Source: Cellvibrio zantedeschiae
Lineage (GTDB): Bacteria; Pseudomonadota; Gammaproteobacteria; Pseudomonadales; Cellvibrionaceae
Length of the DNA: 64,000 nt
NCBI RefSeq assembly: GCF_014652535.1
Contig: NZ_BMYZ01000001.1
Location: 868,001 to 932,000, forward strand
Direction: 5' to 3'
Both the position numbers and the translations under genes were made by a program. This document shows, piece by piece, positions 15,160-64,000 of this stretch (positions are counted from its first letter, which is position 1; each line of letters begins with the position of its first letter). The notes under the pieces were generated by a model, which was given only the letters and a program-made list of their open reading frames with translations, did not search any database and was not told where the DNA came from.

Positions 15160-15765
15160 TTAACGTTTGGCATCCTCCAGGCGCCAAACCAATTTGGTTT
15201 GATGCCAACAGGGAACAGCTTTCTCATTTTCCATGCAGGGCGTGAATGCCCAATTACGTTTGGCGTGTTTGATGGCAGCTTCGTCTAGTCTGCTTGAGCC
15301 GCTCGAAGTAACCAATTCAACATTGCTCAAACTGCCGTCGGTATTGACCAGAAACCTTAAACCGGAAGCGCCTTGCTCACCTAAACGTGAAGCAGCGAGT
15401 GGGTAGTCTGGTTTGGTCGCTCTAATTAAGCGCGGTTTCGACATGGTCGCGGTCTGGATAATATCGCCACCGCCACGTTTGATAACTTGCGGCCCAGTAT
15501 CACTTGCAAAATCAACCACTGGCAGATTCGTATCAACGATAATTTGTGTTTTATTGTCGACATTAGGTTTGGGTACGTCAATCGGTGGAGGGGGTGTAAC
15601 TTTCTCCTCTATGGGAGCTACTTTTAATGGGACCAGCGGAAGTACATTAATTATTCGTTGCGCAAGCCCTGTGGTGAGAGCCCAAATGAGTAGTAGGTGG
15701 AAAGCAATAACAATAAAAATTCCGAGGGATCTTTGCTGGGTGTTTTGCTGAACATGATATGACAT
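15160..15765 (-). CDS. TonB-family energy transducer protein
   Basis: 201 residues. One N-terminal membrane anchor (about 14-34, after MSYHVQQNTQQRSLG), a short proline-rich stretch (VTPPPPIDVPKP) and a C-terminal TonB domain (about 110-198, with PDYPLAASRLGEQGASGLRFLV and RLDEAAIKHAKRNWAFTPC). TonB passes inner-membrane proton-motive force to outer-membrane receptors. The proline region is much shorter than in E. coli TonB and no exbB or exbD is adjacent, so it may serve a dedicated receptor or borrow ExbBD from elsewhere. The domain carries two cysteines near its end (TPCMENEKAVPCW). No Fur-like box was found upstream. Confidence 0.85.
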   Translation of the reverse strand: MSYHVQQNTQQRSLGIFIVIAFHLLLIWALTTGLAQRIINVLPLVPLKVAPIEEKVTPPPPIDVPKPNVDNKTQIIVDTNLPVVDFASDTGPQVIKRGGGDIIQTATMSKPRLIRATKPDYPLAASRLGEQGASGLRFLVNTDGSLSNVELVTSSGSSRLDEAAIKHAKRNWAFTPCMENEKAVPCWHQTKLVWRLEDAKR

Positions 15766-34028: not shown

Positions 34029-36059
34029 ATGCTGAAACTTCGTACGCAAATTCACAAGCTCATACTCGCAGTTTCTGCGAGTTGCGCTTGCGTTTGTGCG
34101 CGGGGAGATGAGGGCAATTATTTAACCATGGAGTTAGACCAGCTTTTGCAAGTTCCTGTTACGGGTTCTACCTTGCGCGATGAATCCTTAAAAACGGTGC
34201 CCGCAGCAGTCACAATTTTTACTCATGATCAATTGGAAAAGCTTGGGCAGGACTATCTTTATGAGTTACTAAACCTGGTGCCGGGTTATCAATCTACCCG
34301 CGCAGCTGACCATGGGGCTAATTACACATTCAGCTCTCGCGGACGCCGTAATAGCGCACAAGCCCGTGAAATTTTGGTGGTCATGGATGGTCGCATTTTG
34401 GCAAATCCACGCACAGGATCGGTAGATGTATCCTTACCGCTAATTCCGCTTGAGCAAATTGAACGAATTGAAATTATTCGCGGCCCTGGTTCTGCTATTT
34501 ACGGTTCAAGTGCATTTACCGGTGTAATCAATATAGTGACTCGAAAAGGGCAAAATGCTGTCAAAGTTGAAGTCGGTAACGATCAGCGCAAAGGTGTAAG
34601 CCTTATGCTATCCAAGCCAGTAAATGACTGGACGACTAATCTCTTTGCGCGTGCTTATGAAGACTCTGGTCAAATTTATAATGTGCCGGATTCGTTCACT
34701 AGGCAGCCAACCACAATTGAAGACCCACGCAAAACTTTTGATTTGGATCTTGCGTTAGGCAAAGATGAAACTCAGTTACGTGTGGCATACCACCGTTTCA
34801 CTGCAGACGATTTTTATTCACTTGAAAATAATCAAAGTAATTTTAACGGCATAACCGTATGGTTAAAACAAATTAGTCTTGAACAAGGCATTCATTTTGT
34901 TGATGGCGTTACCACACAGATTTATGCAGGTTATTTGGCCAACTCCCAATCATTTAACGTGGCCACAATGGGTGCTGGTAGTTTGGCCGCAATCAGTAAC
35001 CCTTCCAGCGACGCTCCGCTTTTGACACAAGCAACGCTCGCGGGTGAGAGCTATAACTTGCGGCTTACCAATACTTGGGACATAGGAAAAAATGCTGATG
35101 CTTTGCTGGGCGTTGAATGGAAGCATGAAGCAGAAATTGATGCTTACGTGCATGACAATTTTGATTCGGGCCAGTTAGCGCAGAAGCAATTCCCCATAAA
35201 TTATTACGGCAACTTTGATCATGTTACCCAGATTGGTACGGAAGAATCATACAATGTTGTTGGTATTTATGGTCAATATCATCGCACCTTTGGAGAGAAC
35301 ACAAATTTAACCTTGGGTGCGCGTTACGATGATTATGATAATTTAGGTGGCCATGTTAGCCCAAGGTTTGGATTGGTTCATCAGCTCTCTAAATCACAAA
35401 CGATCAAGTTGCTTTACGGTGAAGCTTATCGTGCGCCGTCTTTGGGTGAAACTGGCATTCTTAATAATTCAGTTGTGGTTGGAAATCCCGATCTTGATTT
35501 TGAAATGGTAAAGGCCTGGGATTTAGTTTGGATGGGAACCTGGGGTAATGCCATCATGAGTGTGGCTGGGTTCCGCAATAATTACAAAGATGCAATTGTT
35601 GCCGGGCTCAAAGGTGCCGTGCGTACTTTTGTAAATGCGGGCAACGAATCCAGCAGCGGAATTACTCTTGGCGCAAAATATTTTATAACGCTCGATTGGT
35701 CTGTGCGTGCAACTTATACGGATTTTTTAACCTTGCCTCCAACTGCTTTCCGTGAGGCAAGCCAGTTGGCGTCGGTAGAATCTAATTACGCTTACGGCGC
35801 CTGGAATTGGAATTTACTGACATATCACCGAAGTGCTCGTTATACTCTGGGTCCAAACAATAGTAGAAATCAGTTAGATGATTATTGGGTATTCAATTCG
35901 AAATTACGCTACAAATTTAAAGCCGGCTATAGCTTGAGCTTACAAGCTAAAAATCTCACAGATTTGGATTACTTTTCTCCTGCACAAAGTATTCGTTTGC
36001 CACAAGGTGTTCCTAATCGTGGACGTGAGTTGAGCCTTATTTTGGAATCTGCGTTTTAA
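34029..36059 (+). CDS. TonB-dependent outer-membrane receptor
   Basis: 676 residues. Signal peptide to about CARG, then a short TonB-proximal stretch (MELDQLLQVPVTGSTLRDESL). The plug domain spans about 45-165 (VPAAVTIFT, LLNLVPGYQ, RGRRNSAQAREILVVMDG, IERIEIIRGPGSAIYGSSAFTGVINIVT). The 22-strand barrel ends in a terminal phenylalanine (LILESAF), the outer-membrane insertion signal. It is 50 bp after the GGDEF-EAL gene on the same strand and is probably the last gene of that operon. It transports an unknown ligand, and could instead, or also, serve as a sensor for the YfiR-kinase pathway. Confidence 0.93.
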   Translation: MLKLRTQIHKLILAVSASCACVCARGDEGNYLTMELDQLLQVPVTGSTLRDESLKTVPAAVTIFTHDQLEKLGQDYLYELLNLVPGYQSTRAADHGANYTFSSRGRRNSAQAREILVVMDGRILANPRTGSVDVSLPLIPLEQIERIEIIRGPGSAIYGSSAFTGVINIVTRKGQNAVKVEVGNDQRKGVSLMLSKPVNDWTTNLFARAYEDSGQIYNVPDSFTRQPTTIEDPRKTFDLDLALGKDETQLRVAYHRFTADDFYSLENNQSNFNGITVWLKQISLEQGIHFVDGVTTQIYAGYLANSQSFNVATMGAGSLAAISNPSSDAPLLTQATLAGESYNLRLTNTWDIGKNADALLGVEWKHEAEIDAYVHDNFDSGQLAQKQFPINYYGNFDHVTQIGTEESYNVVGIYGQYHRTFGENTNLTLGARYDDYDNLGGHVSPRFGLVHQLSKSQTIKLLYGEAYRAPSLGETGILNNSVVVGNPDLDFEMVKAWDLVWMGTWGNAIMSVAGFRNNYKDAIVAGLKGAVRTFVNAGNESSSGITLGAKYFITLDWSVRATYTDFLTLPPTAFREASQLASVESNYAYGAWNWNLLTYHRSARYTLGPNNSRNQLDDYWVFNSKLRYKFKAGYSLSLQAKNLTDLDYFSPAQSIRLPQGVPNRGRELSLILESAF

Positions 36060-59833: not shown

Positions 59834-62800
59834 TTAAACTTCCTTAGTGCTTTCGTCACTCGCTTTAGTTTCTAGCTTGGGCGCAGGAATAATATCTGCG
59901 TCCGCATCCCACAATCCGCGATAACTTAATTGTTGCCACGCCCAGCGCAACCATTTCAATAATGATGCTGCGAACCACAGCGACCAAATTAAAATAATGA
60001 CTTTGTAGCACCATAGCGGCAAGGAAATTACCCAAGCGGTGGGGAATGCCAAATCGCTGTGGTCTTGGTACCAGTAGAAATTATTGCCATAAGTATTGTG
60101 ACCTACGATATGCATATCGGGTGAACTCAATAATCCGTCTGGCAAGGTGGTAACTAATGCAAAGAACACGAACAATGAAAGTGCGAATAATCCAAGTTGC
60201 AAAAATCTGAATTTCCATTTGCTACCAATGGCGCTGAGTTTTCCGCGCTGGCTTAATGCCAACAACCAAACGGCGAACCAAATAAAGGTTCCCATGTTCA
60301 GTGTGCAAATTCCCAAACTGAGCAATATCCATTCATATGGTTTAAGTGGTGTTAATTGCGCGCGGCCTAAACCATAAGCCACGATTGCCATAACAACCAG
60401 CATTCCCCAAAGCAAAATGCTTGGGCCAATTTGTGGCCCGCCTACCCATAGCACCCAGCGGTTATAAGGAATTCCCATAGAGATATTTTGGTTGCTGCTA
60501 CCATTCTCCAAATTAAATAAAGGTGTTTTGGTGAGCAATCCAATAGCATCGTCTTGCTTCCAATTGATACTGACTTTTTGTGAGCCTGGGTGTAATGGAA
60601 CTTTTAAAACACCTTTAGTGGAGCTGATTAGTTGTTCGGTGTTGTCAATTTCCAGTTTGGAAAGCTGTGCACCCTCCGGCAAGGTAAACGTGTATTGCCC
60701 GCCTTGATTGGAGCGAATATTTAAATTCAAAATGCTCAAGCTGTTGTGATTACCGGGGTTATGAGAGAGCGAGGCTTCATCAACCGTAATGTGTTGTCCT
60801 TGCGTTGCCTGAGGGCGATGCACATCAATTGTTAAGCTTTCACCGGGCCAAGGTTGCCATACAGGAATATTTTCGTGCTTCGCCATTTGTATGGGTGCTA
60901 TACCGGTAGTTTGAGAATGCCAACGAGGCGAAATATCCAGCGTCCAAATTTCAACCCAGGGAACATTTTGTGCTGCTTGTAATTTAATGGGCGAAATTTC
61001 TTTAAGATTAGATGACCACTCAAATTCATCGTCATCGCTCTCTAAATGCACGGCCACTTTTCCGTTGGGATTTGCTTTGGTTGTTAAAGGTGATTCACCA
61101 TTTAATATGGGTACTTCAATATTAATAGTGCCAACAGCAGGTGCAACTCGTGTAACTGTGGTAACCAGCGTCCAATCCAAATCGAGTTTTAATGTGCGTT
61201 TAACAAGCACAAATGCTGCGATGGGATCCGGGCGTAAATGTTCTGTTTGTGATGCGCTTTGATCGCGCTCAACGCGTTGTAATTGCAATGATTGGCTGCT
61301 TTGTTCTGCGTTTGGTAATCCACTTAGTTCCCAGCCACTGGTTGTCGGTGTGACATTGTGCAATGGAAGAGGGAATTGTAAATTCAGCGCATCGTGACCT
61401 TGAACATTAGCGCTAATTCTCAAGTTGTGTTGCCCTTTAGGTAAGCTCACTAACAAGCTTTGATCGGCGGCTTGAACTAAAGCGGCGGGTTTCCCATCCA
61501 CAGTAACTTGGTTTGGCCACCATTGTTGATGATCTGCGGGTAAGGGGAATGCAATTAAATCATTTGCGTTTACCACGAGGTCGAGCGTCAATTGATCTTG
61601 CTTGATATCAATGTTTACACGTTCAATGGCTGCGCAATGTGGTAAACATTTTGGCTGTTCTGTAAGTCGTGCTTCCAACTCTTTAAGAATAGATGGATCA
61701 ATGGTGACATCGGCTTGTGCGGAGTCAGGCGTAAACAAAATAGAGCTTCCCACCATCAAACAAGATGCGAGACCCAATACGCGGCTACCTGGAAATTTCA
61801 AACTCGGTAATTTTGCATCGTTTGATGATAAGAATTTTTTCAGCAAAACAACGGCCATCAATAAAGGCAATAAAATCGCGAGTAAATTGCCGAGCTTGTT
61901 AAACCACGGTGAAATTAAAAATAGCTTGGTGGTTTCGTCCTGTTTGATTGGGCCATCCCAATATAAGTTCACAGATTTCTGATCGTGAGTGGGCACCGCA
62001 ATTCCAGTTTGTGTTTGCTGCGATGGATCGTATTTTTTATCGAAGCGTCTATCGGTTTTCACACCGGGAATTCGCTGTAATGACTCGGCAACGTTTGAAT
62101 CCGGGAATTTTCCAAAATCTTCGGCTTCTATGCTGTCAACGTCAGCTCTTTTAGGGGCGGGTGCAGCGGCCATTGATTCAGTAACCCTTGCAACCACAAC
62201 TTCTTCCGCAACTTCCGGTGAAGGAGCTTCTACTGTTTTCATTGAGAGCGGTGCGTATTCTTCTCGTGAGCTAAAAATAGATGAGGTGCTAACGACCCAG
62301 AAGTTTTTGTTTTCTAAAGACGGATTTATCATGATGCGCGCTTCGCGCACTGCAAAAGGCAAAGTGATAATTGCCAGGCTTAAAAAACTTAAATAACCAT
62401 AACGCACTAACCAAGTTTTGAATTTTCCGGTCACCAGGGTTGTGAGTGCTATAACAGCAATTAAATTTAACCAAATAAATACCGGCGCGCCTAAACGTTG
62501 ATAAACAACAATTAAACCAAGACCAGCTAGTACGCCCAGCTGGATTGATGTAATGCGTGCGAAGGCAACGGCAATAATTAATACGGCGAACATATCCCAC
62601 AAGGTCCATTTAGAAAGCCAGGTGCCTATTTCATTGCTGGTACCTGTCGCAGTAAAAAGTGACCAGCCCGGTGGAAGGAATAGAGTGGTGTGCAGATTAT
62701 TTAATTCCTGATTCCAACCGCTTACGGGAAGTGTGAGGCTGCGTTCAAGTTTACTCACAGCTTGTAGCGATAAATTGCGGGAGCGAATTTCCAAGCCAGA

Positions 62801-64000
62801 ATTCTGGTTTTTATCCAGCTGTGTAACCAGCTGCGGTTCGCCATCAATTTTTGCACTGGTCAACTCAACAGGTTTAATCATTTCTATGCGTGAGCTGTAG
62901 ATTTCGCCATTGAGCGTATCGTTAAAAATAAAACCTTTTCCATCAAATCCTAACCAGGCATTGCGTTCCAACTGCAAATTGCTGGCAACATCTTTATTTT
63001 CACCGCGATACAGCTCTTCCAAAGTGAAATGCGTTTGGGGTGTTACTAAATAAGCGGGTAAATTTTTCCAATCATCGGGTAATTGTGTTTGTTGGGGATC
63101 AACTGATTGCGCGCCGGAGATTTGCACGCTACGCAGTTGGCGCTGCGCTTCGAACACCCAAATTTCTTCTTGCGGCCAAAATTCGTTGGTGACTTTATAA
63201 GAAATGTCTTTGTGGCTAGTGGTGGAAGTGCTGACGAGAGTAATTTCCCAAGTGCCGGGTTTTAATTGCACGCGCAGGCTGCCATCTTTTTCGATGTGGG
63301 CAGGCAATTCGCTTTCAAATTCCACTACAGTAAAACCATCTAACAAAAGTTGCCCGAGTTTAATTTCACGTTCTTTGCCGCTCACGCCTAACTGCAATTG
63401 CGTGGTGATTTGCAAAGGAATCCCATCGTCAATTTTTCTAAATACGCGAACACTTAATGCATCTTGATGTGCGGCAACACTCTTGGGTTGGTTGTTGGCG
63501 AGCCAGAGTTGATTGTTACCTTCCAGTGCCGGGTTGTTCACGCTTTTTCCATTGAGCGTCAATTGAATCAAACCGGTTTGCGCTGGAATGCTAATGGTGC
63601 GCGGCATTTCTGCCCAGCTGAGGTTACCGGTAATTTGGTGTGAGCCGGGCGTTAAATAGGCTTCGGGTGTGCCATTGCGGTCGCGCGTGGTGATATTGCC
63701 GAGGCTGCTGCTGATGTTATGCGGCCACAAACTGGCGCTGCCGGGCAATGCGACCCAATCGCTTTTATAAACATCAATTCTCTGCGTGAATTTAGCGCCC
63801 TTGTCGTTAGCTTCAATCGTTAAGCCGGAATACCAGTGGCAGGTGCGATTGCCGGTGTTGAACTGGAATGGGCAATTTAATTCGGGATGTTTTTCGAGCA
63901 CCCAGGGTTTCCATTCTTCGAGGGATTTGGGGATTTCAGCGGCGAGTGAATAGCTACTGATGACTGCGACAAGAACTCCAAATAAACGAGCTAATAGCTT
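59834..64000 (-). CDS. Large inner-membrane protein with an embedded TonB-receptor-like plug segment (partial, 5' end outside window)
   Basis: The frame is open to the window edge. 1388 residues are seen and the first ones, KLLARLFGVLVAVISSYSLAA, are a signal peptide lacking only its start. A GTG at 63901 is internal and not the start. Beta-rich periplasmic regions follow (to about residue 490), then three or four membrane helices (about 500-590). Next is a loop that reads like the N-terminus of a TonB-dependent receptor: EEVVV (TonB-box-like) and GKFPDSNVAESLQRIPG (plug start), at about 62041-62215. Further parts are two hydrophobic stretches, a second beta-rich domain (about 770-1165) and a C-terminal block of five or six helices. 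Not a beta-barrel. The family was not recognised. It is the most unusual protein in the window. Confidence 0.85.
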   Translation of the reverse strand, partial: KLLARLFGVLVAVISSYSLAAEIPKSLEEWKPWVLEKHPELNCPFQFNTGNRTCHWYSGLTIEANDKGAKFTQRIDVYKSDWVALPGSASLWPHNISSSLGNITTRDRNGTPEAYLTPGSHQITGNLSWAEMPRTISIPAQTGLIQLTLNGKSVNNPALEGNNQLWLANNQPKSVAAHQDALSVRVFRKIDDGIPLQITTQLQLGVSGKEREIKLGQLLLDGFTVVEFESELPAHIEKDGSLRVQLKPGTWEITLVSTSTTSHKDISYKVTNEFWPQEEIWVFEAQRQLRSVQISGAQSVDPQQTQLPDDWKNLPAYLVTPQTHFTLEELYRGENKDVASNLQLERNAWLGFDGKGFIFNDTLNGEIYSSRIEMIKPVELTSAKIDGEPQLVTQLDKNQNSGLEIRSRNLSLQAVSKLERSLTLPVSGWNQELNNLHTTLFLPPGWSLFTATGTSNEIGTWLSKWTLWDMFAVLIIAVAFARITSIQLGVLAGLGLIVVYQRLGAPVFIWLNLIAVIALTTLVTGKFKTWLVRYGYLSFLSLAIITLPFAVREARIMINPSLENKNFWVVSTSSIFSSREEYAPLSMKTVEAPSPEVAEEVVVARVTESMAAAPAPKRADVDSIEAEDFGKFPDSNVAESLQRIPGVKTDRRFDKKYDPSQQTQTGIAVPTHDQKSVNLYWDGPIKQDETTKLFLISPWFNKLGNLLAILLPLLMAVVLLKKFLSSNDAKLPSLKFPGSRVLGLASCLMVGSSILFTPDSAQADVTIDPSILKELEARLTEQPKCLPHCAAIERVNIDIKQDQLTLDLVVNANDLIAFPLPADHQQWWPNQVTVDGKPAALVQAADQSLLVSLPKGQHNLRISANVQGHDALNLQFPLPLHNVTPTTSGWELSGLPNAEQSSQSLQLQRVERDQSASQTEHLRPDPIAAFVLVKRTLKLDLDWTLVTTVTRVAPAVGTINIEVPILNGESPLTTKANPNGKVAVHLESDDDEFEWSSNLKEISPIKLQAAQNVPWVEIWTLDISPRWHSQTTGIAPIQMAKHENIPVWQPWPGESLTIDVHRPQATQGQHITVDEASLSHNPGNHNSLSILNLNIRSNQGGQYTFTLPEGAQLSKLEIDNTEQLISSTKGVLKVPLHPGSQKVSINWKQDDAIGLLTKTPLFNLENGSSNQNISMGIPYNRWVLWVGGPQIGPSILLWGMLVVMAIVAYGLGRAQLTPLKPYEWILLSLGICTLNMGTFIWFAVWLLALSQRGKLSAIGSKWKFRFLQLGLFALSLFVFFALVTTLPDGLLSSPDMHIVGHNTYGNNFYWYQDHSDLAFPTAWVISLPLWCYKVIILIWSLWFAASLLKWLRWAWQQLSYRGLWDADADIIPAPKLETKASDESTKEV

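Follow-up and report, generated by a model that had tools for sequence, protein, structure and literature searches.

A receptor-like TonB-box and plug-start segment recurs in the variable loop of an uncharacterised membrane-protein family

TonB acts on outer-membrane receptors and on the bacteriocins that mimic them, and plug pieces outside barrel proteins occur in non-receptor proteins of Bacteroidota (M56/BlaR1-like), none of which is among the literature matches listed. The carbohydrate-type TonB receptors (NCBIfam TIGR01782), which possess a barrel and a whole plug, share an EEVVV box and a plug start, in the same order, with the protein analysed here, which is encoded on the minus strand of a 64,000-nucleotide stretch of Cellvibrio zantedeschiae DNA (contig NZ_BMYZ01000001.1, positions 868,001 to 932,000; referred to as the window). 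In this protein, however, the segment is found mid-protein, between predicted membrane helices. TonB-dependent colicins provide a second point of comparison, since they are non-receptors whose TonB box lies in an unstructured stretch, as described in the excerpted text of PMC11658791; while colicins are toxins entering from outside, the present protein would be a resident, multi-helix membrane protein. The receptor-like segment is genuine, its resemblance to receptors being beyond chance; it is not recent, and it recurs among relatives of the protein.

The gene of this predicted inner-membrane protein covers positions 59834-64000 of the window (minus strand), where its open reading frame, with 1388 residues inside, extends past the window end. 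In the genome, a start ATG is found two codons outside the window end, preceded by AAGGA, a plausible ribosome site, and the completed gene encodes 1390 residues, with helices in the structure models, in line with the membrane protein of about 1390 residues put forward in the original prediction. The TonB-box-like EEVVV corresponds to residues 599-603 (62206-62192 on the minus strand) and the plug-start segment DSIEAEDFGKFPDSNVAESLQRIPGV to residues 622-647 (62137-62060), comprising DSIEAEDFGKFPD (residues 622-634) and SNVAESLQRIPGV (residues 635-647). The order and wording of these elements were as originally predicted, but not their spacing of about 27 residues: the gap between EEVVV and DSIE is 18 residues (23 from start to start). 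Both elements are covered by the match of NCBIfam TIGR01782 (TonB-Xanth-Caul, carbohydrate-type receptors) to residues 599-652 (E = 1.5e-13), which bears out the proposed N-terminal hallmark of carbohydrate-type receptors, and by a profile of 14 TonB-receptor N-termini from the same genome, which retrieved the window protein with E = 1.6e-17 among the 172 family members searched. Pfam Plug matched residues 620-655 below its cut-off (E = 0.0027; 18.6 versus 23.9 bits) and on 31 of the 107 profile positions, so that the whole plug is absent. No barrel family was matched by the protein in Pfam or NCBIfam, as had been anticipated, and the models consist of β-domains and helices. Since both barrel and complete plug are missing, membership of the TonB-dependent receptor family was rejected; the two helix bundles in the models likewise argue against an outer-membrane location. 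The suggestion that the segment adopts a plug-like fold received no support, the segment being modelled with low confidence and only the start of a plug being present.

Structure models, one per half, were built from the window and named-locus sequences (mean pLDDT 82.7 and 82.6; pTM 0.53 and 0.62). Each half displays β-domains, four helices, a β-hairpin and one further helix, and hhalign shows the halves to be related (98.3%, E = 2.2e-14 across 420 columns). The segment was correctly placed by the original prediction between two groups of helices: four precede it and one follows it in the same model, the second group belonging to the other half. More precisely, it is contained in a variable loop (residues 568-654; 62039-62299, minus strand) with pLDDT below 50, which connects helix 4, the last of the predicted membrane helices 1-4 (residues 467-558; 62327-62602), to a region comprising a conserved loop-closing QTG..P motif, a β-hairpin and helix 5 (residues 655-724; 61829-62038). 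The loop is probably disordered. This had been named as an outcome that would speak against a TonB-related role, and the disorder is indeed predicted, but it does not decide the matter, since the TonB boxes of genuine receptors are flexible too, according to the excerpted text of PMC11658791. Given an export signal and four preceding helices, the loop should face the periplasmic side of the inner membrane, and the four lysines/arginines of the short loop after helix 5 agree with this placement.

Among 171 members of the family, the loop ranges from 38 to 136 residues. In 22 homologues the region from helix 4 to QTGPG is poorly alignable, and yet EEVVVTGxR or the plug start recurs within it. 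When the receptor N-terminus profile was compared with the 172 members, 14 matches scored about zero or better, all of them within the loop. A TonB-box or plug-like signature, with strict, looser, profile and by-eye matches taken together, is present in 21 of the 204 members with a definable loop, which refutes the possibility, raised earlier, of a scar confined to this strain; the box is found at the same position in several lineages. A strict box pattern, which was defined once boxes had already been noticed and whose matches do not include the window protein, was found in 12 of these loops, against a mean of 0.01 and a maximum of 1 in 300 shuffles, and nowhere in the other 254,279 residues. 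An earlier box pattern also matched one conserved spot in the second half (17 matches outside the loop), for which reason the strict pattern is the trustworthy one; a loose pattern gave 18 matches compared with a shuffled mean of 2.2, and those in L235 and L248 look like chance. At the DNA level, the segment has no match in the rest of its own genome better than E = 1.36, so that recent copying within the genome is excluded: it is not a fresh copy or scar, and its likeness to receptors has been kept at the protein level.

The simplest reason for this pattern, to which a probability of about 0.45 is assigned, would be a docking loop that is interchangeable and, in this protein, serves TonB. The protein would constitute an inner-membrane scaffold of two related halves, each with periplasmic β-domains on a bundle of membrane helices, and in the first half the loop joining helix 4 to helix 5 would reach into the periplasm and accept almost any sequence. 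TonB and the box would pair through β-strand addition, the mode known from receptors, and the scaffold would thereby be linked to the TonB-ExbB-ExbD motor in the inner membrane; this link may either pull on the scaffold or keep TonB pooled nearby. The main rival, quite possible if somewhat doubtful, is tolerated insertion, in which an unconstrained loop repeatedly acquires pieces of the abundant TonB-receptor genes that then decay without function, corresponding to the fusion relic of the original prediction. Insertion fits a loop that is hypervariable and modelled with low confidence, and in which relatives retain different pieces (in some the box alone, in others the plug start alone or the last two thirds of the plug). 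It explains less readily why the most recurrent piece is the short box rather than a random stretch, and why the protein likeness persists without DNA likeness to the genome's own receptors.

The distribution of the signature bears on the same choice. On an 80-row tree built without the loop, it requires 12 changes, at least nine of them on supported branches, compared with 18 for shuffled labels; a 172-row tree with 19 labelled rows gives 11 changes, and neither tree can tell gain from loss. The changes on supported branches speak against insertion followed by decay, as does the retention of the box, the plug start or both in seven of the seven members of the supported clade to which the window protein belongs (G000, G017, G003, G005, G006, G020 and G001): G000 and G017 have both, G003 has the box and a worn plug start, and G001 and G005 have the box. 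The plug start is 59% identical between the nearest relatives, G000 and G017, compared with 41% and 24% for the rest of the loop and 72-77% for the folded parts. Its dN of 0.30 and dS of 1.85 (32 codons) give a low ratio, also to the disadvantage of insertion, and its pN of 0.24 is below the values elsewhere in the loop (0.38 and 0.44). A separate count over 30 codons gave a dN/dS of 0.10 for this pair; dS is saturated in most others.

The signature is also associated with receptor number. In the genome of the window protein, 11 TonB_C matches and 38 Plug matches above cut-off were counted. Among the 80 gene-bearing genomes tested, 21 or more Plug matches were present in 20 of the 20 with the signature and in 16 of the 60 without it (Mann-Whitney p = 5.8e-7, kinship ignored); counts near 51 are to be read as 'at least', and the segment of the protein itself may be among the matches counted, as is the case for G000. 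In the 20 signature-bearing genomes tested, the abundance of receptors means that donors abound, as insertion would require. The same figures suit the idea that the protein is a decoy that sequesters TonB and thereby throttles competition among dozens of receptors, the own genome having so many Plug matches and the signature occurring only in genomes with at least 21 of them. Nevertheless, the signature is missing in 16 of the 36 genomes that reach this number and nothing specific favours a decoy, which we regard as very improbable. The coupling of polysaccharide sensing to TonB, another role proposed at the outset, received no support from the analysis.

Several observations weigh against a docking loop for TonB. 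As regards the signature itself, about 36 residues of plug are left in the window protein, and its box, EEVVVARV, lacks the usual TG and misses the strict pattern. Most members of the family (183 of 204) have no signature, so that docking is not a core function of the family, and G015, which belongs to the genus of the window but falls outside the supported clade, has no piece of it. Within the clade, G006 has no box and G020 just EEQVV, both retaining the plug start, which speaks against a strict need for the box. The stretch that holds the box (residues 597-618) changes in a near-neutral manner between G000 and G017 (dN 0.67, dS 0.75; 17 codons), as decay after insertion would have it, and the plug start, with its dN of 0.30, evolves faster than the folded parts (0.15-0.18); its low dN/dS would equally be expected if pieces had been captured separately from receptors under constraint. 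As for the link with receptor number, it may reflect donor supply; selection and donor supply would both give such a link, and phylogenetically independent pairs lean the same way at each threshold without reaching significance (median p 0.5, 0.25, 0.125 and 0.45 at thresholds of 15, 21, 25 and 30). The 13 lysines and arginines in 94 residues of the variable loop are of no help to its periplasmic placing. Finally, neither a ton gene nor a receptor is a regular neighbour in 104 neighbourhoods. Home-made profiles for TonB_C and Plug revealed no pattern there, with TonB_C in L050 alone (two frames) and plugs in L042, L048, L052, L153, L163 and L318, and clustering of the genes around 22 homologues and the named loci gave lineage-wide synteny alone: while the family's own cluster spans 77 named loci, no neighbour family occurs in more than 11. 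The expectation that homologues sit beside TonB receptors was thus not borne out.

The persistence of the plug start without a good box in G006 and G020 is compatible with a role independent of TonB, in which the plug start or the EEVVV strand would be used within the protein or serve as the binding site of a different periplasmic partner, for instance a protease or an assembly factor. This is improbable: box-bearing members outnumber those with only the plug start, and the loop has no ordered structure in the model, though the underlying alignment consists mostly of box-less relatives. In L090/L318 (genome G235, a single contig; L318:7135-11460), EEVVVTGAR is followed by plug positions 41-107 of 107 (Plug E = 6.5e-14) and the loop resembles solved receptors, with E-values down to 1.3e-11; it has no plug start, so that the piece common to this protein and that of the window is the box. 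A receptor near the G235 gene was considered as the donor of its plug and rejected, the match being weak (E = 0.001 across 40 residues).

A different motif is found in Myxococcota. GEEGxMGxP is present in the loop of four (L166, L184, L187 and L195) of six members titled Nannocystis, Polyangia or Myxococcota, for example in L166 (L166:5647-6009), at the place where other members have the TonB box; the motif is worn in L173 and absent from L213. In the L166 genome, a like motif is found in two GltG-like gliding proteins, which match NCBIfam GltG with E = 7.1e-108 and 2.6e-108, below the model cut-off, and the AgmX/PglI C-terminal domain above its cut-off, and in one von Willebrand factor A (vWA) protein. 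The E-values of the motif search are weak (0.2-0.4), so that the likeness to GltG rests on the motif itself. That a motif common to vWA and GltG-like proteins takes this place in myxococcotan loops can be counted in favour of a role without TonB, but it is also a hint that the loop adopts motifs from whichever TonB-type machinery is present locally. The docking loop might then be generalised to a scaffold family with a periplasmic socket loop displaying the motor motif of each lineage, the TonB box in receptor-rich Gammaproteobacteria and the GltG-shared motif in Myxococcota; on present sequence comparisons this wider version is unlikely.

If a docking loop for TonB is correct, the motor would also serve clients in its own membrane, here an integral inner-membrane protein with a TonB box, and this could be relevant to the way in which dozens of receptors share the TonB proteins. 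Such an inner-membrane client of TonB-type motors is of a kind absent from the literature matches listed: among these, in a full-text search whose coverage leaves out most subscription journals, nothing was found on an inner-membrane TonB box or on the family.

The segment also provides an entry point to a widespread family that is missing from Pfam and NCBIfam, neither library containing a family that covers the protein beyond the receptor-like segment. When the halves of 50 and 51 relatives were compared with Pfam, matches other than to the plug were scattered and weak, with none to M1 aminopeptidase or Ost1; they included YfhO (2 of 50 relatives, lowest E-value 1.1e-4) and Hepar_II_III_C (3 of 51 relatives, lowest 0.0066). 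Of six relatives compared with NCBIfam, L090 matched receptor families, L206 gave one match at 0.32 and the other four none. Solved structures searched by sequence contained no relative, the single match being at chance level (E = 0.72). With Foldseek, both halves matched the β-domains of Ost1/ribophorin I and M1 aminopeptidase (best Ost1-type E = 8.7e-8 and 3.8e-7), but the query TM-scores of 0.13-0.15 and root-mean-square deviations of 16-27 Å of the Ost1 matches indicate that this resemblance is merely local, and the protein has no Pfam match to either family. The matching regions are the predicted N-terminal β-domains (residues 25-458; 62627-63928, minus strand), which would lie on the periplasmic side, and the second half (59834-61780, minus strand), modelled as helix 6, β-domains and terminal membrane helices and related to the first.

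Members were detected with a profile of the second half, which matched 8 of 21 genomes at the level of the genus, 24 of 144 at that of the family, 35 of 390 in the order, 52 of 369 in the class and 24 of 299 in the phylum sample, as well as 21 of 112 genomes of the family of G235. Each genome with the gene gave a single match, unless the gene is fragmented. As the larger searches scored just two or three candidates per genome, the apparently single-copy nature of this uncharacterised family rests mainly on the family (n = 144) and genus (n = 21) searches. At least 558 relatives were found, of which 80 were kept, and those named include Saccharophagus, Teredinibacter, Marinagarivorans, Methylobacter, Nannocystis and Aquabacterium.

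With regard to the surroundings of the gene, a 426-residue gene, citrate synthase by eye, is located directly upstream on the same strand in seven of eight members from the genus of the window (L034:7205-8485, minus strand, for example), and a succinate dehydrogenase cluster, also recognised by eye, comes after it in L034. A defence system was considered and rejected, there being no PADLOC match. The window also contains a TonB_C match (15178-15414, minus strand; own-genome search) and a receptor plug match (34188-34526, plus strand). Within the family, L304 stands out through a 2060-residue open frame (stop to stop), about 600 residues above the usual length, the surplus being N-terminal, and the loop of L168 (Crenothrix polyspora) has four cysteines, a residue that hardly occurs in the 171 loops.

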